Shown: positions 2,154-64,000 of the stretch, in pieces
Layout: every line of letters starts with the position of its first letter
Position numbering within the stretch: the first letter of the stretch is position 1
Virus record (IMG/VR): IMGVR_UViG_3300037083_000054
Location: 58,835-122,834 of that record
Reading direction: 5' to 3' (one strand)
Length of the DNA: 64,000 bases
DNA from: a virus
Notes under the pieces: model-generated
What the model was told of the DNA's origin: nothing
Seen by the model: only the letters and a program-made list of their open reading frames with translations
The model's database searches: none
Position numbers and translations under genes: made by a program

Positions 2154-4004
2154 ATGAGCACAATCCGAGAGCGAATTCGTGGTGCGGTTGACTTGTATTC
2201 TTTTAATACAAACGAGAAGCGTGATGCTGATGGAAGATGGGCTTCCAGCGGCGATGCTCATTCGGAAGCCGAGCGAGCGAATTCCGTGTTCAGGAAGCAT
2301 GAGCAACCGACCGCTTCTGCGTCCGTTGACGAGGATGGTTCGTACAAGGTCGAGCATCCCACGCATGGGGAATTGACTTCGAACGAGATTGATAACCTGC
2401 ATTCCGCCGCATCGGATGTCGATCGAGCCAACAAAGTGCTCTCGAAGCACGGCCATGAACCTCTGGCGACAATCGGCGACGACATGCAGACAACGCACGA
2501 TCCTGACAACCTCGAAGATGCGAGCGATGAGGTCAAGCGAGCCAATAAGGTCTTCGAAAAGCACGGACTGCCGGATCGAGCGAATCTGGAAAATGTGAGT
2601 GGTATGTTCGGCGATTACAACTCGTCAGTGGACGCCGACGAACTTGAGCAAGCCGACGCGGATCACGAGAAGGTCAAGAGGATCTTCGAAAAGCACGGGA
2701 TTGACCCAAAGCATTCCAGCATCACAAACGCGAACGGTTCGTGGGAGTCAAAACACAATCTCGACGATATTGAGTCCCTGCATCAGGACATTTCGCGGGC
2801 CAACAAACGATTGGAAGCGATTGGGTTGAAACCGAATCTGAAGATGGCGATTCAGTTGGGGGAAGCTTACTCGCCGCATGATCTGGATGAAATCAATGAC
2901 GCGATCGACGTTCTGAAGAAGTTCCGAGACAAGGAACGATATTCACGCCGCGAGGATCTATCGTCGATTGTGCGGGCCAAATACGTTCTGCGGGATTTCG
3001 CGATTGACCGCTATGCCGAAGGTCACTGGATTACAGTTGAGCCATCTGGGACGCATATTGAGCTTGATGGCAAAGGAAACGTTCTCAAAGGTCCGAACAT
3101 CAATAAAAGTCCACACGGAACGCTTCCGCCTCCTGCTAAACCAAAAGTTAAGACTCCTATTCAAGATCCAATGTTGCGAGGAACAACGCCGCTTCCGCCT
3201 CCTGCTAATAAGAAATTGCCGCCAGTTCCCGGACAAGAACCGCCATCCGCTCCATCATGGTTCAAAGGCGGCAAGAAAAGCGAAGTTTCCGCTCCCGGAA
3301 GCATGACTCATCGTTTGCGATCGGCAATGGAAAATCATGTTCACTCAGTTGTCCAGCCGAAGAAGGATGAACACTTTGCGGAACATGCCCCCGAAGAAAA
3401 GGCAGCCTCCCAAATGACTCCCGATGAGCATCTCCGCAAAACCGTGGAAGACATCAAAAAGCGACTTGCCGCAAGCGTGAAGCAAGCGGTTGCCTCGCCA
3501 TCAGCCGAGAAGCCCAAGCCGAAAAAGCTGACGGCCCAGATTGATCCGGAAACGACGAAAGCGGCCTTTGCTCCGAAAGCCAAACCGGAAAAGAAACCGG
3601 AGATGCCGAAACCGCAGTCGGTCGCTCCTGCCGCTCCAACTCCGCATACCGATTTCTCGCAAGATCGACTCGCTGTCAATCGAGCGAAATCAACAGGCGA
3701 TACAGAACAAGCGAAACAACTTCAGTCCGTCTTGACGAACAAAATCGCAGCGGCAATGGGAATCGTTCAGACGTCAGCGAGTGCCATCAATGACTTTGAA
3801 GCACGGCTGCGGAATGGGGTCGCGAACTACGCGAAACGCAAGTCAGCGGTTGGCCAATTGGATCTGTTTTCCGGCGAGACTCGATCATCATCCAAAACAC
3901 AATCGCACTTGGATTGGGACGAGAGTAAGCATCATCGGGGGCTTTGCCCATTTAATGGCACTTGCCCGAATAATGAAAGGTCTGCCCGTTTAATCGGTGC
4001 ATGA
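2154..4004 (+). CDS. Repeat-containing head-region protein, 3' end replaced by an insertion
   Basis: A 616-residue protein starting MSTIRERIRGAVDLYSFN, matching the two genes before it. Residues ~40-260 contain about four repeats of ~50 residues centred on VKRANKVFEKHGL-like helices. Further motifs KERYSRRED and FAIDRYAEGHW follow, then a Pro/Lys-rich linker. The C-terminus reads LDWDESKHHRG and then turns into the left end of the mobile element (3940 onward), which supplies the last ~20 residues. The original C-terminus therefore probably lies beyond 9298. A virion-interior or head-assembly role is inferred from position and shared motifs. Confidence 0.65.
   Translation: MSTIRERIRGAVDLYSFNTNEKRDADGRWASSGDAHSEAERANSVFRKHEQPTASASVDEDGSYKVEHPTHGELTSNEIDNLHSAASDVDRANKVLSKHGHEPLATIGDDMQTTHDPDNLEDASDEVKRANKVFEKHGLPDRANLENVSGMFGDYNSSVDADELEQADADHEKVKRIFEKHGIDPKHSSITNANGSWESKHNLDDIESLHQDISRANKRLEAIGLKPNLKMAIQLGEAYSPHDLDEINDAIDVLKKFRDKERYSRREDLSSIVRAKYVLRDFAIDRYAEGHWITVEPSGTHIELDGKGNVLKGPNINKSPHGTLPPPAKPKVKTPIQDPMLRGTTPLPPPANKKLPPVPGQEPPSAPSWFKGGKKSEVSAPGSMTHRLRSAMENHVHSVVQPKKDEHFAEHAPEEKAASQMTPDEHLRKTVEDIKKRLAASVKQAVASPSAEKPKPKKLTAQIDPETTKAAFAPKAKPEKKPEMPKPQSVAPAAPTPHTDFSQDRLAVNRAKSTGDTEQAKQLQSVLTNKIAAAMGIVQTSASAINDFEARLRNGVANYAKRKSAVGQLDLFSGETRSSSKTQSHLDWDESKHHRGLCPFNGTCPNNERSARLIGA
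3940..4003 (-). repeat. Left terminal repeat of the 3.9-9.3 kb insertion
   Basis: GGCTTTGCCCATTTAAT, then TTGCCCGAATAAT and TGCCCGTTTAATCGG. It is the inverted counterpart of ends at 6576-6641, 9232-9298 and 56658-56724. Each has three TGCCC-type subrepeats. Confidence 0.6.
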
Positions 4005-4013
4005 AAAATTATC

Positions 4014-4349
4014 ATGGCCATGAAGCCTGAAGAACTATTCAATTTAGCCGTCACAGACAAGTTTCCCGACTATTTCCATCCAGGGCAAGGCGATTTGGTG
4101 CCAGACGATCTTCTGTCGGCCATGATTGTCCGCTGTGGCGCTCCAGATCTGGGCGGAAAAACGAACAGTGCGCTTGAGGGTGGTGGGCTGGTGATCGATT
4201 ACATTCCAAAAGGAATGCTTGGCGTCAAGCGGCTTGTGCTGAGTTTAAATGATTTGGGAATCAATGTTGTTATGTGTGATCACCTTCCAGAAGATAATGA
4301 GACCATTGTGGATTCAGTTCCACTAAATACCGCCGAACAGCATTCTTGA
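4014..4349 (+). CDS. Hypothetical protein in the insertion
   Basis: A 111-residue protein, MAMKPEELFNLAVTDKFPDY. I do not recognise it. It begins 10 bases inside the mobile element past the left repeat. Its last ~80 bases overlap the end of the converging gene on the other strand. No domain, signal peptide or membrane segment is visible. The regular hydrophobic spacing of the second half suggests a folded globular domain. Confidence 0.45.
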   Translation: MAMKPEELFNLAVTDKFPDYFHPGQGDLVPDDLLSAMIVRCGAPDLGGKTNSALEGGGLVIDYIPKGMLGVKRLVLSLNDLGINVVMCDHLPEDNETIVDSVPLNTAEQHS

Positions 4350-4887
4350 CGTGCGTCAGTTCATGAATGTGGAAAGCCTGCTCGATTGGCGTTCCTTCGT
4401 GGTGATATCTCCATTTGGAGAATACTTCTGAGCAGTCGTTCAAAATCTGATCAATTGTCGCTTTCTGTTTTGGTTGTGTTGTATCTGAACAAAACTGAAT
4501 GCGAACAAGATCTTTTGAACTATTCTCTTCATATAAAGCAGCAATCTTCTTCTGGCTGTTGGCTGTCATTTTCTGAAACAATTCGTTCAGTGGGTGTATT
4601 CGCTTGATAGATGTGTTTTCGCATTTGAGAACGGACTTGAAATACAACTCAACACAGAAAGCTGTTGCGACAACGAATGCTTTTAGAGTGGGAAGCCGTG
4701 TTTCAACTGTTGATCTTGGGTTTTTCTGATGTTCAACCCTCGCTGCTTCGAGACGATTCAGCGAGTCAGCGGCGAGAACCTCAGACGAATAGTCCCAATT
4801 GACCGCATTGGCAAATAACCCAATTCCAGTGTCGTATGGTTCTGTGTCGAGGGCCACATGGTAAATCGTCATATTCGTTGAATCCAT
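4270..4887 (-). CDS. HEPN-like protein
   Basis: A 205-residue protein. The central part AFVVATAFCVELYFKSVLKC followed by HPLNELFQKM resembles the helical core of HEPN-type proteins, which often pair a membrane-facing helix with an H-x-L-x-x-L segment. HEPN proteins are frequent RNases or partners in defence and toxin systems. A catalytic R-x4-6-H is not secure here, so RNase activity is not claimed. It reads leftward behind the ribbon-helix-helix gene (84-base gap) and may be in the same transcript. The call is tentative. Confidence 0.45.
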   Translation of the reverse strand: MDSTNMTIYHVALDTEPYDTGIGLFANAVNWDYSSEVLAADSLNRLEAARVEHQKNPRSTVETRLPTLKAFVVATAFCVELYFKSVLKCENTSIKRIHPLNELFQKMTANSQKKIAALYEENSSKDLVRIQFCSDTTQPKQKATIDQILNDCSEVFSKWRYHHEGTPIEQAFHIHELTHVKNAVRRYLVELNPQWSHYLLEGDHT

Positions 4888-5230: not shown

Positions 5231-5360
5231 AAATCAGTCGAAACAAAACCCGGTCGCTGCTGAAACAACAACCGGGAGCAACCACAACCAGCGTTTCCAC
5301 TGAATGCGATCAACCAAGTTCATTCTACTGGAAACGCCTCTTAAGAAAAGAGGCTTCATC

Positions 5361-6629
5361 ATGTGCGACCGGGAACAACGAGGTTTGGCAATCGCGGCAA
5401 TGACGAAAATCAAACGATGCGGTTATGTGTGGGTCGTTCCCAGCCAGTCCGGAAGCGGTAAATACTCGGTTTCTCCAGACGAACAGTCCCCCTATTGCTC
5501 GTGCCCCGACTTTGAAACGCGGGGCGTCACCTGTAAGCATATTTTCGCGGTTCGATTCACGATGAAGCGAGAACAGCATAGCGATGGTTCAGAGACGATC
5601 ACAGAAAGCGTGACCGTCACGGAGACGGTACGTAAAACGTATCCGCAGAAATGGAAGGAGTACAACGAAGCACAGAAAAATGAGAAAGACCACTTTCAAG
5701 CGTTGCTCCGCAGTCTGTGCGACATGATCAAGGAACCAAACGTTAAGCCCGGTCGTGGACGGCCCAAGCTGGCGATGTCCGATTGCGTGTTCATGTCATG
5801 CTTCAAGGTTTACTCGACCGTCTCGCAGCGTCGGTTTATGTGCGATTTGGATGACGCAACGGAAAAAGGATATCTGGAGCGGACTCCGCACTACAATGCC
5901 ATCGGAGCGTCACTCGAAGGCGAAGCGATGACGCCAGTCCTTATGAAACTGATCGCTGCATCAAGCCTGCCATTGAAGGAAGTCGAAACGGATTTCGCTG
6001 TCGATTCGACTGGATTCACAACCTCGAAATTCTATCGCTGGTACGATCACAAGTATGGAAAAGTCCGCGAAGATCACGACTGGGTCAAATTGCACGCAGT
6101 TTGCGGAGTGAAGACGAACGTGATTACCGCAGTTGAGATTCACGAACGGAACACGAACGATTGCCCGCTTCTGCCATCGCTCTTGGCAAAGACCGCCGAG
6201 AACTTCACGGTCAATGAGATGTCAGCCGACAAGCAATATGCCTCGCGTGACAACTTTGACGCCATTAACGCGATTGGTGCCGACGCCTACATTCCATTCA
6301 AAGCGAACGCGACCGGGAGCGTGGGAGGAATGTTCCAGAAGGCGTTTCACTTCTTCAGCCTGTACCGGGAAGACTTCCTGAAATCCTACCACAAACGGAG
6401 TAACATCGAGTCCACGTTCAGCATGTTGAAACGCAAGCATGGGGACAGCGTCCGAAGCAAGACGGAGGTCGCGATGAAAAACGAAGTGCTGTGCAAGGTT
6501 CTCTGTCACAATATCTGCTGCCTGATTTCCGCGATTCACGAATTGGGAATCCAGCCGGTTTTTGATAAGCTGATCGGCTGCACATTTAATCGGGAACCTG
6601 CACAAGAAATCGCCGCTTTTCGGGATTAA
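5361..6629 (+). CDS. DDE transposase with N-terminal SWIM zinc finger
   Basis: From the internal ATG 5361 (MCDREQRG; AAGAGG upstream) the protein has 422 residues; an ATG at 5304 would add 19. A SWIM-type C-x-C-xn-C-x-H motif is seen as YCSCPDFETRGVTCKHIF. The DDE core is suggested by VDSTGF, SADKQY and NIESTFSMLKR, an IS4/IS5-superfamily layout. The 3' end of the gene lies within the terminal repeat at 6576-6641, so the stop codon is part of the element end. I do not assign an IS family name. It is intact and likely drives movement of the surrounding insertion. Confidence 0.8.
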   Translation: MCDREQRGLAIAAMTKIKRCGYVWVVPSQSGSGKYSVSPDEQSPYCSCPDFETRGVTCKHIFAVRFTMKREQHSDGSETITESVTVTETVRKTYPQKWKEYNEAQKNEKDHFQALLRSLCDMIKEPNVKPGRGRPKLAMSDCVFMSCFKVYSTVSQRRFMCDLDDATEKGYLERTPHYNAIGASLEGEAMTPVLMKLIAASSLPLKEVETDFAVDSTGFTTSKFYRWYDHKYGKVREDHDWVKLHAVCGVKTNVITAVEIHERNTNDCPLLPSLLAKTAENFTVNEMSADKQYASRDNFDAINAIGADAYIPFKANATGSVGGMFQKAFHFFSLYREDFLKSYHKRSNIESTFSMLKRKHGDSVRSKTEVAMKNEVLCKVLCHNICCLISAIHELGIQPVFDKLIGCTFNREPAQEIAAFRD

Positions 6630-18212: not shown

Positions 18213-19739
18213 ATGTCGTTCAAGATGAATCCGCTTTTTGCGACGGATGCGTATAAAATTGGTCATCATTCGATGACGCCGACTGGCACGCAGTACATTT
18301 ACTCCAATCTCACACCCCGTAAATCGCGAGTGACGGGACAGAATGAAGTGGTCGTGTTCGGTCTTCAGTATTTCCTTCAGGAGTATCTGATTGACCGATT
18401 CAACGAAGAGTTCTTCTCTCGTCCGCTGGGCAAACTGATTGATGAGTATCAATCAACAATGGATTCCTACCTCGGATTCGGAGCGGTCACAACGGATCAT
18501 ATCGCCGCATTGCACGAGTTGGGCTATTTGCCGCTTCTCATCAAGTCCTTACCGGAAGGAACGCTCTGCCCGATCAAAGTGCCGATGCTGACGATCGTGA
18601 ATACGCATCCCGATTTCCCGTGGCTGACGAATTATCTCGAAACCATCATGTCAGCCTGTCTGTGGCAACCCTGCACGTCAGCAACCACGGCTTATCAGTT
18701 TCGAAAACGATTCGACAGAGCCTCCGAAGAATCAGGGCTTGACGTGTCGTTTAACAAATTCATGGGACATGATTTCTCGTTTCGCGGGATGTCGTCGCTC
18801 GAATCGGCGATGCTGTCGGGAGCGGGGCATCTGACGTCATTCGTTGGAACGGATACGATTCCCGCAGTCAAATTCATTGAGCGATATTATCCAGGTAACA
18901 ATGGATTGATCGGAGCGAGCGTATTTGCCACGGAGCACAGCATTGCGTGCCTGCTGTCAGACGACTTCGCTCGCAAGATTGTTCCGACAGGTGAGTCCGG
19001 AGAAAATCTCTTGGCTCGCGGAGAGATCGAGCATGTCCGCTATCTCATTACCGAAGTCTATCCGAAAGGAATCGTGTCGATCGTTTCGGATACATGGGAC
19101 TTCTGGTCTCTGATCACTGTCGGCATGAGAGAATTGCGTGGCGACATTCTCGCTCGTGACGGCAAAGTCGTGTCTCGCCCTGATAGCGGCGATCCCGTCA
19201 AAATCATTTGTGGTGACCGCGATGCGAAGATCGACTCTCCAGAGTTCAAAGGGGCGGTCGAATGCCTCTGGGACATCTTCGGCGGTTCATGGACGAACAA
19301 GGGATATCGAATGCTCGATCCTCATGTGGGAGCGATCTATGGCGATTCCATCAATCTCGAACGCCAAGATCAAATCATCAATGGCCTGATGAAGAAAGGA
19401 TTCGCTCCAGAAACAGTCCTTGGCATCGGATCGTACTCCTATCAGTTCGTGACTCGCGACACATTCGGATTCGCCATGAAAGCGACATGGGGCCAAGTGA
19501 ACGGCGAACCTCGCGAAATCTATAAAGATCCGAAAACCGACAAGGGCAGCGAAAAGAAATCCGCCAAAGGATTGTTGGCCGTCTATCTCGATGACTTTGG
19601 CAAGATGCGATTGTACGATCAATGCACGAGGCAACAGGAACGCGGCGGAATGTTGACGCCTGTTTTTGAAGACGGCAAGATCTTGCGTACAGACTCGTTG
19701 GCGGATATTCGGTATCGGTTGCATGGGGATAATTTCTGA
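18213..19739 (+). CDS. nadV: Nicotinamide phosphoribosyltransferase
   Basis: A 508-residue protein, full length for the family. Diagnostic segments: FATDAYKIGHHSM at the start, FMGHDFSFRGMSSLESAM, SFVGTDTIPA, VFATEHSIACL, SRPDSGDPVKI (phosphate binding) and GFAMKATW. It converts nicotinamide and PRPP to NMN. With the adjacent PRPP synthetase it can rebuild NAD+ precursors from the nicotinamide released by NAD-cleaving defences. NMN adenylyltransferase was not found in the window; the host enzyme or a gene elsewhere would be needed. Confidence 0.9.
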   Translation: MSFKMNPLFATDAYKIGHHSMTPTGTQYIYSNLTPRKSRVTGQNEVVVFGLQYFLQEYLIDRFNEEFFSRPLGKLIDEYQSTMDSYLGFGAVTTDHIAALHELGYLPLLIKSLPEGTLCPIKVPMLTIVNTHPDFPWLTNYLETIMSACLWQPCTSATTAYQFRKRFDRASEESGLDVSFNKFMGHDFSFRGMSSLESAMLSGAGHLTSFVGTDTIPAVKFIERYYPGNNGLIGASVFATEHSIACLLSDDFARKIVPTGESGENLLARGEIEHVRYLITEVYPKGIVSIVSDTWDFWSLITVGMRELRGDILARDGKVVSRPDSGDPVKIICGDRDAKIDSPEFKGAVECLWDIFGGSWTNKGYRMLDPHVGAIYGDSINLERQDQIINGLMKKGFAPETVLGIGSYSYQFVTRDTFGFAMKATWGQVNGEPREIYKDPKTDKGSEKKSAKGLLAVYLDDFGKMRLYDQCTRQQERGGMLTPVFEDGKILRTDSLADIRYRLHGDNF

Positions 19740-56724: not shown

Positions 56725-56876
56725 CTTTATTCTGCTGCTGGCTTCGTTCTGTCTCGCATCGAACGAGCATTCCAGTCGGCTTGTGCTTCACCTGGACAGC
56801 CGATTCAGTTTTGTTGCGATGCTGACCGCCCGGACCGGACCCGCGACAGGTTGAGATTTCAAGGTCGGATTCATTG
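56725..56876 (-). pseudogene. 3' part of the release-factor-like gene
   Basis: Reads leftward: [20 protein letters not shown] then [16 protein letters not shown] and [17 protein letters not shown] is the peptidyl-tRNA hydrolysis motif of class I release factors. It continues in frame from the 59018-59331 part if the IS between them is removed. The end after QNKA is replaced by the terminal repeat at 56658-56724. Confidence 0.75.
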
Positions 56877-56932
56877 GGTAACGATATACTTCGCTCAGAA
56901 CTTTGCAGGTAATTGAAAATGAAAAACCGACG

Positions 56933-57067
56933 TTACTTTTTTCGCTTCTTGGCTTTGTTCTTGGCCAGCTTTTTATCGAGTTCGGCCTTCGGAACCTTGA
57001 CCAGCTTCGATGCCAAATCCTTGAATGCTCCGAAGCCACGCGGCTTCCTTTCCGGTACGTCTGTCAC
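56933..57067 (-). CDS. Small Lys-rich protein at the IS end
   Basis: 44 residues from GTG 57067 (AGGAG upstream), GFGAFKDLASKLVKVPKAEL then DKKLAKNKAKKRKK. A very basic small ORF after an ISXO2-like transposase, possibly an accessory protein. It starts 11 bases after the transposase stop. Confidence 0.5.
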   Translation of the reverse strand: MTDVPERKPRGFGAFKDLASKLVKVPKAELDKKLAKNKAKKRKK

Positions 57068-57077
57068 AATCAATCTC

Positions 57078-58037
57078 CTATTGAATTCCCATGAAACCGG
57101 CATCGTCGATTCCGGCCAACTTACGATAAGTCAGCCGCTTTCCGACGACACCTTTGAGCAGCTTGAAAAACCGATAGCAGTCGTTCACTTTTCGCTGATT
57201 AAATCTCCAAGCCTGCTCGTGACAGTATCTGTGCAGGTGGAACGGCATCACAGCAACGTAGGTTCCCTTCAGTGCTCGTTTGAGCAGGGACCAGAAGTTT
57301 TCAACGCTGTTCGTATGGCATCGCCCGCGAACAAACTCAATCGCATGGTCGACGGCGCTGTGCCGGTATCGGTTGTGCAACGATCCATAGGCCGTGGCCG
57401 CGTCAGTGTAGACGAACGAATCGGCCTCTACGTTGCGAATGATGTTTCCAGCCAAGTTCTCAGCGTCGGCAGCAGGAACGACGAACGTCCTGACATTTCC
57501 TTCGCGTTCCAAGATTCCCTGCACGGCTGTTTTGTTGACCGCTCCCCGACCGTCAATCAGTTTCTTTCGTCGGCCAGCATGCATGTTTTTAGCTTTACCA
57601 CCGACGAATGTTTCATCAGATTCGACTTCGCCATTCATTTTACGGAAGTCGTCCGTCTCCATCGCAACGCGGATTCTGTGAAGCATAAACCACGCCGTTT
57701 TTTGGGTGACGCCGATTGCTCGGCCAAGCTCGTGAGAACTGACACCGTTCTTGCAATTAGCGATCGACCAGACGGCCACAAACCACTTGTCCAGGCCAAG
57801 CGGCGAATCCTCGAAAATGGTGTCAATCTTGTACGAGAATTGCTTTTTGCAGGTCCGAACATTGCATTGAAGTTGTGGACGGCCTTTAACTGGAGTCACC
57901 GATTTTCCTTCACACTTCGGGCAGACAATCTCGCCGTTTGGCCATTTCAGATCGGCCATGACTTCGTTGCAGCGGGCCGGATCGGAAAAGTAGCGGACGG
58001 CTTCGATAAGAGTTTTTGGGAGAGCATTATCTGCCAT
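57078..58037 (-). CDS. IS1595-family (ISXO2-like) transposase
   Basis: 319 residues, full length. N-terminal zinc ribbon CPKCEGKS...CNVRTCKKQF; then an ISXO2-like DDE/DDxN-type core with SDETFVGGKAKNMHAGRRKK, FVYTDAATAYGSL and HTNSVENFWSLLKRALKGTY. It begins 10 bases after the methyltransferase stop with AAGGA upstream. The first ~85 residues recur almost unchanged in the truncated copy at 62884. Confidence 0.9.
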   Translation of the reverse strand: MADNALPKTLIEAVRYFSDPARCNEVMADLKWPNGEIVCPKCEGKSVTPVKGRPQLQCNVRTCKKQFSYKIDTIFEDSPLGLDKWFVAVWSIANCKNGVSSHELGRAIGVTQKTAWFMLHRIRVAMETDDFRKMNGEVESDETFVGGKAKNMHAGRRKKLIDGRGAVNKTAVQGILEREGNVRTFVVPAADAENLAGNIIRNVEADSFVYTDAATAYGSLHNRYRHSAVDHAIEFVRGRCHTNSVENFWSLLKRALKGTYVAVMPFHLHRYCHEQAWRFNQRKVNDCYRFFKLLKGVVGKRLTYRKLAGIDDAGFMGIQ

Positions 58038-58046
58038 AATTGTTCC

Positions 58047-58724
58047 TTAATCGCAACCCCACTGAGCGGCCATAGCATTCGCAATTCCAGCGTAAGTAAC
58101 CGAACGAATGGACCAGCGATCATCGGAGGGCGGAAGCCTGTTTTGGCCGCCGTCTGTCTGATTCGACCATCGTTCGACAACTTTTCCAGTTCTCGGATCA
58201 GTCACAAACCGTCCTTGAAATCTCCGTGTATGTCGAAGCGTCGGCAAACCTATCAACCAGAGGCACGTCTTTTTGCTGGCGTCTTCCCCAAAGTCATACG
58301 GTTGAATGTATTGATCTGGTTCCCGCCACCGAGTCGAAAGAATACCAACAGGATTCTCAAAGCATTGCCGTGGGATGCCGCTATCACGAATCCTGTAAAC
58401 GAATTCAATGGATTGTTCTCTGGCTTCGCGGCGTGCTTTTCCGGCGAGAGTTCCCGGCTTAATCCTTTGATGATAACCGACTTCAGGGTATCGCTCGAAG
58501 TCTGGCTCTTTGTAAGCCCATTCCGCCGAGCCTGTCATGAATGTGCATGTGGGGAAGAATATCCCGATGTCCCAGTCTCTGTCGAGAACCGTCAACACGT
58601 CGCATTGCAAATGTTTTCCGCCCGTTTTGCAGGGCAGCAAGTCGCAAGACCATGCGTCATGGCCGAGAGCGGCAAAGGCGTCCCTGACACGTCCTGAAGA
58701 TTCACAGCCGAGCAATACACGCAC
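58047..58724 (-). CDS. Cytosine-C5 methyltransferase-like protein
   Basis: 225 residues. RVLLGCESSGRVRDAFAALG followed by HDAWSCDLLPCK matches motif I and the acidic loop of phage-type C5-MTase-fold proteins. IGIFFPTCTFMTGSAEW stands where C5 enzymes have the PC catalytic loop (here PTC), and ECFENPVG-like RQCFENPVGIL follows. The residue order suggests a functional fold, but classical PCQ is absent, so activity is uncertain. It is a passenger of the IS and could modify DNA against restriction. Confidence 0.65.
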   Translation of the reverse strand: MRVLLGCESSGRVRDAFAALGHDAWSCDLLPCKTGGKHLQCDVLTVLDRDWDIGIFFPTCTFMTGSAEWAYKEPDFERYPEVGYHQRIKPGTLAGKARREAREQSIEFVYRIRDSGIPRQCFENPVGILSTRWREPDQYIQPYDFGEDASKKTCLWLIGLPTLRHTRRFQGRFVTDPRTGKVVERWSNQTDGGQNRLPPSDDRWSIRSVTYAGIANAMAAQWGCD

Positions 58725-58896
58725 TTGACTGCTCCTTTGTGAGTTGGGATTCCATGCGAGTTACAAAATACTCGTAATCAAATTCATAACGATCCATCAT
58801 GGCGTACACTTTTTCGCAAGGTCGCATTTCGCACCGCAACTGAGCAAGCGTCAATCCGAGACTTTTGACATCGATCAAAAACTGTTCATAGGTCAT
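58702..58896 (-). CDS. Small first ORF of the IS operon
   Basis: 64 residues, MTYEQFLIDVKSLGLTLAQL with helical pattern and FDYEYFVTRMESQLTKEQSS. Overlaps the methyltransferase start by 23 bases. The first passenger behind the shared promoter; unrelated to the first gene of copy B. Confidence 0.5.
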   Translation of the reverse strand: MTYEQFLIDVKSLGLTLAQLRCEMRPCEKVYAMMDRYEFDYEYFVTRMESQLTKEQSSACIARL

Positions 58897-58929
58897 TTTG
58901 AAACTCCCGTTCGTGTGTGTGACAGAAGT

Positions 58930-58958
58930 ATTATCGTCTCTGCGTTGTTCTGAGTCAA
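58930..58958 (-). promoter_or_regulatory. IS operon promoter, copy A
   Basis: On the minus strand TTGACT, 17-base spacer, GATAAT. The boxes and most of the region up to the terminal repeat match copy B at 61421-61449. Confidence 0.75.
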
Positions 58959-59017
58959 CTACTAACCGTGAGAAACGGCAATTATTCCAAAAGTTCTGAG
59001 TCAAGTAGGTCGTTACC

Positions 59018-59331
59018 ATTCATTGAGTCGGAACTCTGCGGGCGTGATATCCCGGAAGACGGCGACCGTGACAGTCGAAGAATGAACTTTCCCTTTGCGT
59101 TCGTTCGGTGGAACACGCTGCCATCGGTGTCCGCCGGATTCGTGCTTGAAGAGTTGCCATGCAGTCGGTCCGCAGACCTTCACGACGATCATGCCAATCA
59201 GGTCATTGACGATTTCGACGCTAAAGGCAACTCCGTCGAGCGGCCTTCAAATAGACCGACAGTTGCTCGCGGACTAAAGACTTCGCATCATCGCCACCTT
59301 CACCGGCTCGAATCTCAATCCATGCGTTCAT
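59018..59331 (-). pseudogene. 5' part of a release-factor-like gene (RF1-type)
   Basis: From ATG 59331: MNAWIEIRAGEGGDDAKSLV, EQLSVYLKAARRSCL, then an in-frame TAG. After a +1 shift the frame continues SVEIVNDLIGMIVVKVC, WQLFKHESGGHRWQRVPPNE and RKGKVHSSTVTVAVF, the codon-recognition domain of a class I release factor. HRWQRVPPNE aligns with the RF1 HRVQRVPxTE region. The gene is broken by the IS at 59018 and by a second insertion at 56725. As found it cannot give the full protein. Confidence 0.75.
59220..59234 (-). other. Candidate +1 programmed frameshift (CTT TAG C)
   Basis: Minus strand GGAG-TTGC-CTT-TAG-C. It has the same parts as the RF2 (prfB) site: a Shine-Dalgarno-like GGAG just upstream, a slippery CTT and an in-frame stop followed by C. 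Reading after a +1 shift restores homology to release factors on both sides. Confidence 0.65.
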
Positions 59332-59799
59332 GATTATCACTCTCGTTAAAGAAACACTGGCACGTTTTATCTTAACAGGTCACGCTTGGCCTTCGAAATC
59401 ACGGCGGCATCGAATACGAGAGTGGTCAACTGCCGACACCAACCCTCTTGGAATCTTCCCCCGAACACACTGTTGCAAGCGAACGTATCCAGAACGCGCA
59501 AGACCCCTAACCCCGGCACTAAAACTTACAAAAAAGTAAGAAAAAGTCGTGATTAGGGGTATATTTGCAAGACGAACTGTAGAGCCGTCACGCCCAAGGG
59601 CTCGGCCATTTACTGTTGCCGAAATACTTGGATCTCCCCCGACAGGTTCCGCCTGATAAATCAGGTGCGAATGAGTCGCTGGATTGGTTGCGTAGTCCCG
59701 GTATCACGAGCCGGTTCATCCCGTGTCTGTATGTCGAAGCTAACTTGGTTAAGCCGCTTTAGGTGTCAATGACAAGCACCGTGCAGGATATGTCGGAAA
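59332..59799. other. Non-coding spacer, no gene seen
   Basis: About 470 bases without a convincing reading frame on either strand. It includes AACTTACAAAAAAGTAAG, a short inverted repeat, and a GGTTCATCCC segment that superficially resembles a T-arm, but no tRNA cloverleaf could be built. Confidence 0.4.
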
Positions 59800-60147
59800 T
59801 CAAATCTTTCGCTTGTGTTCCTTCTCGTGGCAATTCTTGCAGAGTATTTCGATGTCAGTCGCGACATTCTCGTGACCGAATCGCTCATAGGTTTTATGAT
59901 GGCAATGCAAAAATTCAGTGGCAGGGCATCGACGGCATTTTCTGCCATGAATCGAGAGAGCTAAACGTCTTTTAGACGCCCACGCATCAGATCGCATATA
60001 GGCGTGATATTCGATACTCAACTCAAATGGGCGACGTTCCGAAGACTTGGATTTCTTTTCCAATCGACGCTTACGTTTGGCGAGTCTCGCGGCATTCCAG
60101 GCTGGTTCGAATCTTGATGCTTTCGACCGCATTGCCGATGATTTCAT
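59800..60147 (-). CDS. HNH endonuclease
   Basis: 115 residues from ATG 60147 (11 more from 60180). Basic N-terminus (AARLAKRKRRLEKKSKSSER), then YMRSDAWASKRRLALSIHG, CRRCPATEFLHCHHKTYERF and IEILCKNCHEKEHKRKI. The CxxC...HCHH...N...CxxCH layout is the zinc-stabilised HNH fold; HH is the catalytic pair. Free-standing HNH genes in phages act as homing or packaging nucleases. Next to a broken release-factor gene, homing is more likely (inference). Confidence 0.8.
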   Translation of the reverse strand: MKSSAMRSKASRFEPAWNAARLAKRKRRLEKKSKSSERRPFELSIEYHAYMRSDAWASKRRLALSIHGRKCRRCPATEFLHCHHKTYERFGHENVATDIEILCKNCHEKEHKRKI

Positions 60148-60237
60148 GCGAACAGTCCATTGTTCCAAAAACGACAGCACCCAAAATAACCAAGGGCATT
60201 TGGTTGTTTTGGGTGGCCGTAGAGCGGAAAGCCCATT

Positions 60238-60333
60238 TTATTTTTGTGATTTATCGACTTCCGATGCCCCGGTTGTCGTTTCGGCTGCCATTTTCCTATG
60301 ACGATTGTTTCGAATTGTTTTGCGAGGCGGCAT
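60238..60333 (-). CDS. Very small basic ORF
   Basis: 31 residues, MPPRKTIRNNRHRKMAAETT. Basic N-terminus; 90 bases upstream of the HNH start. Weak evidence. Confidence 0.25.
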   Translation of the reverse strand: MPPRKTIRNNRHRKMAAETTTGASEVDKSQK

Positions 60334-60391
60334 ATTACCGGTCACGACTGCCAGTGTCAATCTATTCGCAAACTGCCGAAAAATCAGTGCG

Positions 60392-60416
60392 AATTAAATA
60401 AGCGGCTTATTTAATT
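60392..60416. promoter_or_regulatory. Extended AAATAAGC palindrome
   Basis: AATTAAATAAGC-G-GCTTATTTAATT, a perfect 12-bp inverted repeat, the longest of the five sites. The following GGGAATTCCGATTTTT is shared with the site at 23464. Confidence 0.6.
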
Positions 60417-60548
60417 TTCTCAGATGTATAGAGGATTATCGACAAAACAGCAGGTATCACGGCTTCAATTGGCCGCTCGCTTCTCGCCAACAATTTCCTA
60501 TTTTCGGGAATTCCGATTTTTCTTTCCGTCTTGCTCTCGACAATCACG

Positions 60549-60566
60549 ATATCATAATTATGATAT
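60549..60566 (+). promoter_or_regulatory. Perfect 18-bp palindromic operator over a -10 box
   Basis: ATATCATAATTATGATAT is its own reverse complement and contains TATGAT (60559-60564). The -35 (CTCGAC, 17 bases upstream) is weak, so an activator may be needed. Same layout as 23521-23551. Confidence 0.65.
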
Positions 60567-60607
60567 ATCTGCCGAACGCGAATCAAACTCAAACAAGGGG
60601 CGAGCAA

Positions 60608-60790
60608 ATGTCACAAATCATGATCAGTCGACAGAACTACGATTATCTCGTGCGAAACTGTCCGTCATGGATGAGTCGGTATTGGAGTGAATTTTCAAGG
60701 CAGTGGATGATTGGCGGAGTGTTGGTCAAGGGCGAGTCCCATCAAATTGAAAATCTTCGCTGTCAACTTCCGTCCCCGGACGACAAATAG
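60608..60790 (+). CDS. Small hypothetical protein
   Basis: 60 residues, MSQIMISRQNYDYLVRNCPS; aromatic-rich. First gene after the operator promoter, like the 23590 gene. Unknown function. Confidence 0.45.
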   Translation: MSQIMISRQNYDYLVRNCPSWMSRYWSEFSRQWMIGGVLVKGESHQIENLRCQLPSPDDK

Positions 60791-60850
60791 TTTCGATGTC
60801 GTGATCTGATGGGCGAGAAGTTTCGTTACTCAAACCGAGGGGAATTCAAA

Positions 60851-61366
60851 ATGGCAACTTATCGAATTCATGCAGATTTGATCGACGGCGAATTCATGAA
60901 GACATTTCGCAGCATGAAGTCAGTCGTGGCATATGTCGATTCGATGGAAGACTTCGGCGATGACGGCAGGCGACCTTGGGGCTTTCAAGGCGAGTTCGGC
61001 CCATTTTCCTTTGAGGGCTTCTCATGGGCTGAGATTCATCGCTGCAAGAATAATTACTACCGAAATCATGTGGATGTTGTCGAATGCCAAGCCGACTGGA
61101 AGCTGGTCGAATGGCTCCCGAATCCAGTGACCGGCTATGCAGAATCGGCACAGCTATTCGCATGGGCATATAACGCGACGCATCAAGGATCGTTCTTCGA
61201 GGTCCGTGCCGTGATGGGGCGATATCATGTCACCGCCTTTGATTCCGAATCGCAATACGAAGACGACTGCGGTTTCGAAATCGGTCGATATCGCTCAATG
61301 GAAGATGTCCAGGCGGCAATCGTTCGATGGAGCTTGGCTCCCAAGGCTTCGCGATTCGAATGGTAA
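60851..61366 (+). CDS. Hypothetical protein truncated by an IS end
   Basis: 171 residues from ATG 60851. TYRIHADLIDGEFMKTFRSM, FSFEGFSWAEIHRCKNNYYR, GSFFEVRAVMGRYHVTAFDS. The stop TAA is inside the terminal repeat GGTAACG of the copy-B element at 61362, so the C-terminus has been cut. Not recognised. Confidence 0.5.
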   Translation: MATYRIHADLIDGEFMKTFRSMKSVVAYVDSMEDFGDDGRRPWGFQGEFGPFSFEGFSWAEIHRCKNNYYRNHVDVVECQADWKLVEWLPNPVTGYAESAQLFAWAYNATHQGSFFEVRAVMGRYHVTAFDSESQYEDDCGFEIGRYRSMEDVQAAIVRWSLAPKASRFEW

Positions 61367-61420
61367 CGATATACTTCGCTCAGAACTTTTGAAATAATTT
61401 TCATTTCTCACGATTAGTAG

Positions 61421-61449
61421 TTGACTCAGAACATTCGGGAGACGATAAT
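61421..61449 (+). promoter_or_regulatory. IS operon promoter, copy B
   Basis: TTGACT (61421-61426), 17 bases, GATAAT (61444-61449). Homologous to the copy A promoter in both boxes and spacer length. Confidence 0.75.
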
Positions 61450-61500
61450 ATACTCAGTCAATCGCACTTCGCGGTTGCGGAACTCGAAAAGGAATGAATC

Positions 61501-61932
61501 ATGTTGAAGGCTGACTACACAGTGTGGAACGACAATGACAAAGGTTTTCTGGTTCGTGACGCGAGCGGGCTGTTTAATTATTGGTGGGCTGGATGTTTGA
61601 TGGCGGACGACTTCTGCACATTGGAACAAATGTTCGTCCCTGACTCGGTGGAGCGAATGCGGGAGTTGTCTGAAACTGCTCCTACTCACGGATTCATCAG
61701 CAATCCAAGGGAAGTCGGCGGATATGGCGAGCCGTTCTCGATGGATTTCTCTGAATGCGTCCCGCTCGATCAAATCACGCCAGAGGAAATTCCAGACGAA
61801 TGCCGAACGAGCATGACTTGCCCGAACTGCGGATCTGAAAAGGATATTGTTGGCGGCGATGGACGGATTCTGCTTCTCGATTGCGGATGTCGAATCCTGT
61901 CGAGGTCCAACGCAGTGTTTTCTGGAGATTGA
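61501..61932 (+). CDS. IS passenger with zinc-ribbon end
   Basis: 143 residues. KADYTVWNDNDKGFLVRDAS, then SMTCPNCGSEKDIVGGDGRI and LLDCGCRIL, a CxxC...CxC zinc site at the C-terminus. Function unknown. First gene after the copy B promoter; overlaps nothing. Confidence 0.55.
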   Translation: MLKADYTVWNDNDKGFLVRDASGLFNYWWAGCLMADDFCTLEQMFVPDSVERMRELSETAPTHGFISNPREVGGYGEPFSMDFSECVPLDQITPEEIPDECRTSMTCPNCGSEKDIVGGDGRILLLDCGCRILSRSNAVFSGD

Positions 61933-61936
61933 TGAC

Positions 61937-62173
61937 ATGGAACTCTACAGTGAAGACGGGAACATGAAAGCCGTAATTAAACACACAAAGCTTTGCGTTC
62001 GAGCAACCATCAAGACGCCAAAGCGAACGCAATCGAAACTGTTCCGGTCGCGATTCGGCGGAAATTGGCACTTTGCTGAGGCATGGGCAAAAGAACAGAT
62101 TCGAATCTACAACGATTACAAAAACAGACGCGGCGAATTCGCAAATGAACCTCCAGTAAACGAAGGAATTTGA
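61937..62173 (+). CDS. IS passenger, small basic protein
   Basis: 78 residues from ATG 61937: MELYSEDGNMKAVIKHTKLC then basic helices (WAKEQIRIYNDYKNRRGEFA). Unknown. Confidence 0.45.
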   Translation: MELYSEDGNMKAVIKHTKLCVRATIKTPKRTQSKLFRSRFGGNWHFAEAWAKEQIRIYNDYKNRRGEFANEPPVNEGI

Positions 62174-62175
62174 AT

Positions 62176-62508
62176 ATGACGACAACCACCAATCCTGCAA
62201 CACAGTACGGTCTGACGGATCTTCCTGAAGGGATCGTCCTGAGAACTGAAGAAAACTCGGGAGACGAGTCGGTGATTAAGTGGTCTGGCTGCTATCCAAT
62301 TCCGCAAATCGGACAGTCGGTCAGGATTAACTTCAATACGTTGGGCACAGGCGTTGTGGAAAGCTATTTCGTTGAACACGGATACTGCGGTGTCACTGTT
62401 CGGCTTGATAAAGAGCCAGAGTGGAAAATCAAGCAACACAAGGGAACAAAGCACGCTGGAATCGCGATGGTGTTCGGGCTGGAAATCACGCTTCTTCCAA
62501 GGGTTTGA
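62176..62508 (+). CDS. IS passenger, small beta protein
   Basis: 110 residues from ATG 62176 (GAAGGAATT upstream). IPQIGQSVRINFNTLGTGVV and GYCGVTVRLDKEPEWKIKQH suggest a small beta-barrel. Unknown. Confidence 0.5.
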   Translation: MTTTTNPATQYGLTDLPEGIVLRTEENSGDESVIKWSGCYPIPQIGQSVRINFNTLGTGVVESYFVEHGYCGVTVRLDKEPEWKIKQHKGTKHAGIAMVFGLEITLLPRV

Positions 62509-62511
62509 GAA

Positions 62512-62880
62512 ATGAACATTCGAGAAATCAAGGGGCTTATTGCTTTGGGATGCACTCCGGGATTTGCAGCGTATGCTTCCCGGAGCATCCTTGAGAAAAT
62601 CAATTTGAAGAGGGAACTCCAAACCAACGGTGCTCTGTTTTACATGCTGATTAGTACGATGCGTCGACATGATCGGAAAGCGGCGTTCCAATTTGTGATC
62701 GACTGGAGCAATCCGAATGGCCTTCCAATGACTCGCGTAACCCGCTTCCAGCCTGGGCAGCACTATCACGTTTTGGGTAGAAAATTTGATAAGTTTTCCG
62801 AAGCAGTGGAGTTTTTGGAAAAGAGTGGCTACCGATTTGGTGGAACGGATGTAACCCGTATTGAACTTGCTGGAGAATGA
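62512..62880 (+). CDS. IS passenger, hypothetical protein
   Basis: 122 residues. NIREIKGLIALGCTPGFAAY, HDRKAAFQFVIDWSNPNGLP, YHVLGRKFDKFSEAVEFLEK. Mixed alpha/beta; not recognised. Ends 3 bases before the transposase fragment, the slot occupied by the methyltransferase in copy A. Confidence 0.5.
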   Translation: MNIREIKGLIALGCTPGFAAYASRSILEKINLKRELQTNGALFYMLISTMRRHDRKAAFQFVIDWSNPNGLPMTRVTRFQPGQHYHVLGRKFDKFSEAVEFLEKSGYRFGGTDVTRIELAGE

Positions 62881-62883
62881 AGA

Positions 62884-63240
62884 ATGTCCGACCTTCCAAA
62901 AACTCTGATCGAAGCCGTCCGGTACTTCTCTGATCCGGCCCGATGCAATGAGGTCATGGCCGACCTGAAGTGGCCTGATGGTGAGATTGTTTGTCCGAAA
63001 TGCGGCGGTAAATCGGTGACTCCAGTTAAGGGCCGTCCACAACTTCAATGCAATGTTAGGACCTGCAAAAAGCAGTTCTCGTACAAGATTGACACTATCT
63101 TCGAAGATAGCCCGCTGGGCCTCGATAAATGGTTCGTGGATATGAAACCGCCGGGAAGGCTCGCATGGCTGCAATGGGAGCCGCGAGAGCAAAAGGACGT
63201 GGACGATTCGCTGGCGTCTGCACTGGCGATTGGGATGTAG
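62884..63240 (+). pseudogene. Truncated IS1595-family transposase
   Basis: The first ~85 codons (LPKTLIEAVRYFSDPARCNE through DSPLGLDKWFV) are almost identical to the intact transposase at 57078-58037, including the zinc ribbon. After KWFV (63139) the sequence is unrelated and the frame ends at 63240. The catalytic domain is missing. Confidence 0.85.
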
Positions 63241-63323
63241 AATCGGACGAAGGCATTATCGAAGCGGGTAGGATTGAACGAATATAACAAACCGACTGAA
63301 TCACAAATTTAATGGAGAAAACA
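63140..63323 (+). other. Fragment beyond the transposase break
   Basis: In the +1 frame relative to the transposase, YETAGKARMAAMGAARAKGR and FAGVCTGDWDVESDEG run to a stop near 63287 and look like the C-terminus of a lost gene. Not recognised. Confidence 0.3.
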
Positions 63324-64000
63324 ATGGCCGACGAAACGACAGTTGCAGAAATGCAGAAACCTCATCTCTGGACCGATGGTGGCGACAAGGTGTTAATTCT
63401 CCGCCGCTGCAATGCGGATATGACATCAAGCAACGATTTCAAATATCCAGAATCGGGAGTGGTCAAATGTCCTGACTTCGAGCCGTCAACTCAATGCGGC
63501 GGCGGTCTGCATGGATGGCCGTGGGGAATGGGGCTCGGTGAAGGATCGGATTACGACATTATCATCGATAAATGGTTGATCATCGCTGCCTTCCCGGATG
63601 ATATTGTCGGTGAACTCGAAGGCAAATCGAAATGCAAGATCCGTCGCGGCGACGTGATTCACTGTGGGTCGTTTTCGTCGGCTTGGAATCTGATTAACTC
63701 TGGCCGACATCGACTGATTGATGCAATGGCGATTGTTAAGTCCGTCAATGCAAGTGGCGATAACGGTGCCCAATTGGCCAGTTCTGGATACGGTGCCCGA
63801 TTGGCCAGTTCTGGATACGATGCCCAATTGGCCAGTTCTGGATACGGTGCCCGATTGGCCAGTTCTGGAAACGATGCCCAATTGGCCAGTTCTGGAAACG
63901 ATGCCCAATTGGCCAGTTCTGGAAACGATGCCCAATTGGCCAGTTCTGGAAACGATGCCCAATTGGCCAGTTCTGGAAACGATGCCCGATTGGCCAGTTC
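63324..64000 (+). CDS. DUF7666-like protein with 9-residue repeats, partial
   Basis: Starts at ATG 63324 (GGAG upstream) and is open to the window edge. Residues ~1-140 form a domain (HLWTDGGDKVLILRRCNADM; CGGGLHGWPWGMGLGEGS) like phage DUF7666 proteins. From ~residue 148, repeats of A-(Q/R)-L-A-S-S-G-(N/Y)-(D/G) follow, which probably form a beta-solenoid. The 3' end and total repeat number are unknown. Confidence 0.7.
   Translation, partial: MADETTVAEMQKPHLWTDGGDKVLILRRCNADMTSSNDFKYPESGVVKCPDFEPSTQCGGGLHGWPWGMGLGEGSDYDIIIDKWLIIAAFPDDIVGELEGKSKCKIRRGDVIHCGSFSSAWNLINSGRHRLIDAMAIVKSVNASGDNGAQLASSGYGARLASSGYDAQLASSGYGARLASSGNDAQLASSGNDAQLASSGNDAQLASSGNDAQLASSGNDARLAS
63765..64000 (+). repeat. 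27-bp tandem coding repeats
   Basis: About nine head-to-tail 27-base units such as GCCCAATTGGCCAGTTCTGG plus AAACGAT, nearly identical at DNA level. They encode the 9-residue units of the last gene and continue past the edge. Confidence 0.9.

Follow-up and report, generated by a model that had tools for sequence, protein, structure and literature searches.

Introduction

Insertion sequences of the IS1595 family are bounded by terminal inverted repeats that start with GG and are flanked by an 8-bp target-site duplication. Two other systems bring unrelated genes into fixed surroundings: tailed phages show mosaicism at gene boundaries and carry morons (small additional genes, each under a promoter of its own), and integrons keep frame and promoter constant while their gene cassettes are exchanged, with an integrase and attC sites. 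IS1595 elements that carry passenger genes are known as transporter IS (tIS), ISNha5 being one example (PMC11891212, citing Siguier et al. 2009). The locus described here bears on the means by which phages acquire and exchange small accessory genes, among them DNA methyltransferases and possible counter-defence genes.

The window, by which we mean the whole stretch of 64,000 nucleotides that was analysed, covers the final 64 kb of an IMG/VR virus record of 122,834 bp, with the record end at window position 64000. The source is thus a virus record, not a planctomycete chromosome, and IMG/VR records are predictions from metagenomes. Encoded in the window are phage-type clamp, exonuclease and helicase genes together with NAMPT. 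We propose that it holds one complete, probably active tIS in a phage-like virus (copy A) and one broken relative (copy B), and that both stem from a family in which cargo is exchanged within a fixed frame; we put the probability of this whole explanation at roughly 0.78.

Like the tIS summarized in PMC11891212, these elements have an IS1595 transposase, short end repeats, an 8-bp duplication and passengers dispensable for transposition. They differ from that summary in forming a virus-contig clade, in carrying cargo ahead of the transposase in what is probably a tight operon, in the replacement of cargo between near-identical frames and in a conserved basic end gene after the transposase. Tailed-phage mosaicism and morons are similar in that unrelated genes are replaced at gene boundaries, but here the setting for exchange is a transposon, with end repeats and target duplications as its borders. 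Integrons likewise offer exchangeable genes a constant frame and promoter, whereas here no integrase or attC-like site was seen and several genes can be exchanged as a block. Literature searches, in which the 2009 tIS description was represented through its citation, returned nothing on IS1595 cargo exchange in phages. Relative to tIS as presented in the citing source, what looks new is the combination of a virus-contig clade, an upstream slot within an operon, the replacement of nearly all cargo at gene boundaries and a conserved basic end gene of 40-50 residues.

Results and Discussion

Two copies share a frame and differ in cargo

Copy A is a complete IS1595-family element of 2141 bp on the reverse strand (56877-59017) with matching end repeats (GGTAACG...CGTTACC), and copy B is a remnant that starts at 61362; the coordinates originally given for the elements are correct. 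The features of copy A are as follows.

56869-56876, no strand: target-site duplication, first copy, 8 bp, ATTCATTG
56877-56904, plus strand: terminal inverted repeat on the transposase 3' side, 28 bp identical to the left end of B
56933-57067, minus strand: small basic end gene, 44 aa, GTG start, ...FGAFKDLASKLVKVPKAELDKKLAKNKAKKRKK, the family's conserved last gene
57078-58037, minus strand: intact transposase, 319 aa, zinc ribbon and DDE domain, IS1595 family
58047-58724, minus strand: cargo DNA methyltransferase, 225 aa, phrog_757 (E 6e-51)
58702-58896, minus strand: first cargo ORF, 64 aa
58930-58958, minus strand: promoter, TTGACT-N17-GATAAT
58948-58961, minus strand: internal copy of the end-repeat core, 13/14 bases, with the -35 box inside it
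58990-59017, minus strand: terminal inverted repeat at the promoter end
59018-59025, no strand: target-site duplication, second copy, 8 bp, ATTCATTG

The transposase is a DDE enzyme with an N-terminal zinc ribbon (IS1595/ISXO2-type), matching Pfam DDE_Tnp_IS1595 (2e-36) and Zn_ribbon_IS1595 as well as NCBIfam NF033547 (5e-53), and the element has end repeats starting with GG and an exact 8-bp duplication, all of which place A in the IS1595 family. Passenger genes that are unrelated to transposition lie inside the IS ends, as in tIS. The methyltransferase, which with an accompanying ORF had been expected as the cargo of A, belongs to a family common in phages (151 isolated-phage records, identity up to 49%), and the 64-aa ORF has no Pfam match. 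A custom HMM matches the end gene at E 7e-18, a value obtained with A itself in the HMM seed, and the same pattern is common to 16 other members besides A; the conserved end gene (40-50 residues) has no match in PHROGs or NCBIfam.

Copy B comprises the following features.

61362-61389, plus strand: left terminal repeat, 28 bp identical to the A end at the transposase 3' side
61421-61449, plus strand: promoter, TTGACT-N17-GATAAT, with the -35 box inside an internal copy of the end repeat
61501-61932, plus strand: cargo gene 1, 143 aa, possible zinc finger (weak match)
61937-62173, plus strand: cargo gene 2, 78 aa
62176-62508, plus strand: cargo gene 3, 110 aa, with homologues in large Caulobacter and Brevundimonas phages
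62512-62880, plus strand: cargo gene 4, 122 aa
62884-63139, plus strand: truncated transposase, first about 85 codons, 95% amino acid identity to A

Past 63139 the transposase frame of B runs on into unrelated sequence, out of homology with A, and a right-hand end is absent from the record up to its end (64000). The original prediction of two elements thus holds for A, which has both ends and the 8-bp duplication, and falls short for B, which is broken, with its transposase cut and one end missing. Because B is incomplete, exchange within the window is seen through the ends and the transposase start only, and two intact elements cannot be compared there. Cargo gene 1 of B had no phage match, and a search for the origin of cargo genes 1 and 4 found no source. 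As to an empty site for B, its left flanking gene had no relative in the virus contigs searched. The ORF to the left of B (60809-61366) takes its stop codon from the B end repeat (TGG TAA within GGTAACG), so the insertion of B may have cut this ORF or given it its stop.

The first 89 bp of the left ends of A and B are 84% identical and their transposase starts 86% identical over 247 nt, and between these common blocks blastn finds only chance matches of 12-15 nt. The shared parts are far beyond chance, and the concern that alignment would reduce them to a short fortuitous resemblance can be set aside. Both copies have the identical 28-bp terminal repeat and the same promoter boxes with 17-base spacing ahead of a common transposase start, around passengers that are unrelated, just as had been proposed; the four small genes ascribed to B were found as four small ORFs. 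Cargo genes were called automatically and some calls are wrong (one reverse-strand ORF in B), but the DNA-level comparison is independent of these calls.

Relatives of the window elements on virus contigs

Relatives were gathered from virus contigs and genomes, with the ends placed by matching repeats and duplications, and the collected elements carry labels such as L003 and L082. The relatives from genomes are among the matches listed in the contig scan. A GG start of the end repeats was a search requirement, end repeats matching at 20/22 positions or better sufficed for acceptance (a duplication was not required), and the end-repeat search covered the first 700 bp downstream and was then widened, since many chromosomal elements carry cargo downstream. 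After removal of duplicates there were at least 136 related elements, and 112 of the 136 have an exact 8-bp duplication. Apart from the transposase and end gene, nearly all of them have space for cargo (median 1160 bp), the clear exception being L036, a truncated derivative of 789 bp. This element (positions 3781-4569) has an 8-bp duplication and a truncated transposase and is a MITE-like form of the family. The contig of L082 carries a second, truncated transposase copy (L210, 4001-4459, aa 1-152), much as B lies beside A.

In the transposase tree the window elements belong to a clade of 18 members (SH-aLRT 95), all from virus contigs, in which the cargo slot usually lies between promoter and transposase. 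Adjoining this clade are planctomycete chromosomal copies, which carry their cargo on the opposite flank of the transposase. Many elements with upstream cargo also occur in a second virus clade (25 members, SH-aLRT 100), which was collected from virus contigs only. Overall, an upstream slot was found in 42 of 82 virus-contig elements as against 3 of 55 genome elements, the latter being among the matches listed.

If the virus records were mis-sorted cellular or plasmid contigs, the elements would simply be an ordinary chromosomal IS family. The near absence of the transposase from isolated phages (2 of 50,697 records) fits this explanation, as does a plain terminase search that gave a match in only 10 of 33 records, the match for record G000 being weak (9e-7). 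However, no copy above 58% identity was present in the sampled genomes of 392 Planctomycetota, 347 Acidobacteriota and 398 Pseudomonadota (~1,140 in all), and a search of the 398 Pseudomonadota genomes for the second clade at E 1e-90, run without a positive control, gave no match. Moreover, the best plasmid matches, among those listed, reach about 40% identity, and the window itself carries the phage clamp, exonuclease, helicase and NAMPT genes. The all-virus-contig make-up of the window clade and the 10 terminase matches that were obtained also speak for a virus association. We therefore regard mis-sorting as unlikely.

Cargo turnover and its junctions

In virus-contig elements the frame (the ends, the left-end promoter, the transposase and the basic end gene) is kept and the genes in the slot are replaced. 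Among 53 pairs with transposases at least 80% identical, 44 lack cargo similarity in a six-frame DNA comparison of the cargo regions (tblastx), which is independent of gene calling; in the 9 pairs with any similarity, part of it is end-gene or 5' leader sequence. Protein comparison agrees, with a cargo protein in common in 4 of 50 virus-contig pairs at the same level of transposase identity (at least 80%), and one group of 10 elements holds 9 cargo sets. L003, with a transposase 83% identical to that of A, adds a third member to the window lineage and a third cargo set unrelated to the other two, in which one gene is of phage type (phrog_1273); the L003 5' leader matches that of B over 122 bp at 84%, and homology between the two resumes within 1-2 bases of the transposase start. 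The swap recurs independently in L061/L065 (transposase identity 93%), L081/L082 (98%) and L171/L173 (95%), and the swapped pairs differ in insertion sites and flanks. The possibility raised along with the original prediction, that other copies all have the same cargo, is thus not borne out in this lineage or in others.

The cargo junctions lie at or near gene starts. Across 35 co-lineage pairs, the median distance between the transposase start codon and the point where homology returns is 5 nt, and the left conserved block stops short of the first cargo start codon by a median of 40 nt. Since this block often falls some 40 nt short, the left junction has lower precision than the right-hand one. 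Of the 12 members that make up the neighbourhood of the largest lineage, nine have the start codon of their first cargo gene at position 89-90. For example, the left block of L061 and L065 (87% identity) reaches within 4 nt of the first cargo start codon, and their homology returns at the transposase start codon with 83% identity. L081 and L082 match at 91% as far as the transposase stop codon and at 92% beginning with the end-gene start codon, with unrelated cargo between. The slot can also move, as indicated by L016 and L021 (transposase identity 87%), where the transposase-end gene pair has its cargo on one side in the first element and on the other side in the second. Finally, cargo crosses frames: the methyltransferase of A is 36% identical over 227 aa to cargo of L180, and the transposases of these two elements are 41% identical.

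Expression and exchange of the cargo

Of 35 cases, 25 have the transposase start codon at -4 to +9 nt from the cargo stop codon, and from these touching codons cargo and transposase probably form one operon. A single transcript starting at the left-end promoter would then cover first the cargo and next the transposase, so that the two would be co-expressed. A copy of the end-repeat core lies at the -35 box in A, L003 and L167 (13/14 bases each) and in L012, L014 and L017 (12/14). The placement of the -35 box inside a second end-repeat core in many members of the window clade suggests that a transposase binding the ends would also cover the promoter; on this sequence arrangement the transposase may dampen its own promoter, a form of autoregulation.

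The original description of the system as cassette-like is apt for the outcome, a fixed frame with an exchangeable slot, and does not extend to dedicated machinery, since no recombination site, integrase or excess of repeats was found. A dedicated cassette system would have the transposase or another enzyme recognise a site at the start codon and insert or remove cargo genes. Right-hand junctions that are precise to the start codon favor such a system, and the first cargo gene of L082 closes with a repeat of the transposase gene's terminal sequence (AAGGTGCCAGCATGA, exact in L081 too), but this repeat is the sole case. Direct repeats of at least 13 bp inside elements number 15 against 10.6 expected, which is not above chance, and no integrase or second recombinase gene was found among the element ORFs, which together also separate the elements from integrons. 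We consider a dedicated system quite unlikely. It is similarly improbable that the virus-specialised lineage's own transposition chemistry, not host recombination, exchanges cargo at start codons; if it did, the element would be an active gene-shuffling device for phages.

Passenger genes are known in IS1595 elements (PMC11891212), and a divergent cargo family of ~220 aa recurs among chromosomal elements at 20-30% identity. Both observations are compatible with a plain passenger IS, whose cargo was acquired once long ago and has since only diverged, with no exchange within lineages. In L081/L082, however, the frame retains 91-92% DNA identity on both sides of the cargo and there is none inside, and L061/L065, B/L003 and the 10-member group contradict simple divergence likewise. 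With the neighbouring gene still 83-91% identical, divergence cannot account for the loss of cargo similarity. This reading is already contradicted for the virus lineages and, as an account of the family, is very unlikely. A composite transposon, in which two IS move cargo jointly, was rejected because the cargo of A is enclosed by a single pair of ends that has a duplication of its own and B is one-ended.

For fixed-frame exchange, general recombination combined with selection is the likeliest route, given that no repeat, motif or enzyme for dedicated exchange was found. Cargo would be exchanged by the ordinary recombination that is common in phage genomes or infected cells, and selection would let only those junctions survive that leave the operon readable. 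The cargo, including phage-type DNA methyltransferases, may help the carrying virus, and a useful gene would in turn favor retention of the element.

Cargo content

Nameable functions among 63 cargo proteins are mainly DNA methyltransferases of several families, and further include two MvaI/BcnI-type restriction enzymes, a PD-(D/E)XK nuclease and a PIN domain; the bulk are small proteins without an assigned function. The family behaves as a miniature exchangeable gene carrier in which ends and transposase are constant and the slot genes are replaced almost every time. A fixed frame with a readable slot provides a handle, in that one can find the frame and read off the cargo, and small cargo genes of unassigned role become candidates for functions useful to phages. 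Because the frame can serve as a clock, the rate and rules of gene exchange should be measurable. The MvaI/BcnI-type restriction endonuclease genes lie on virus contigs at L069 2217-2993 and L071 6622-7425.

Other features of the window

The nicotinamide phosphoribosyltransferase gene (18213-19739, phrog_448) suggests that the virus carries NAD salvage genes. Another transposase, a DDE_Tnp_1 protein with a SWIM zinc finger, is encoded at 5304-6629 in the same virus record. Finally, an open ORF with a DUF7666-like start (63312-64000) reaches the record end and contains at least nine tandem 27-bp units, each encoding 9 aa (about NDAQLASSG), that continue up to that end.
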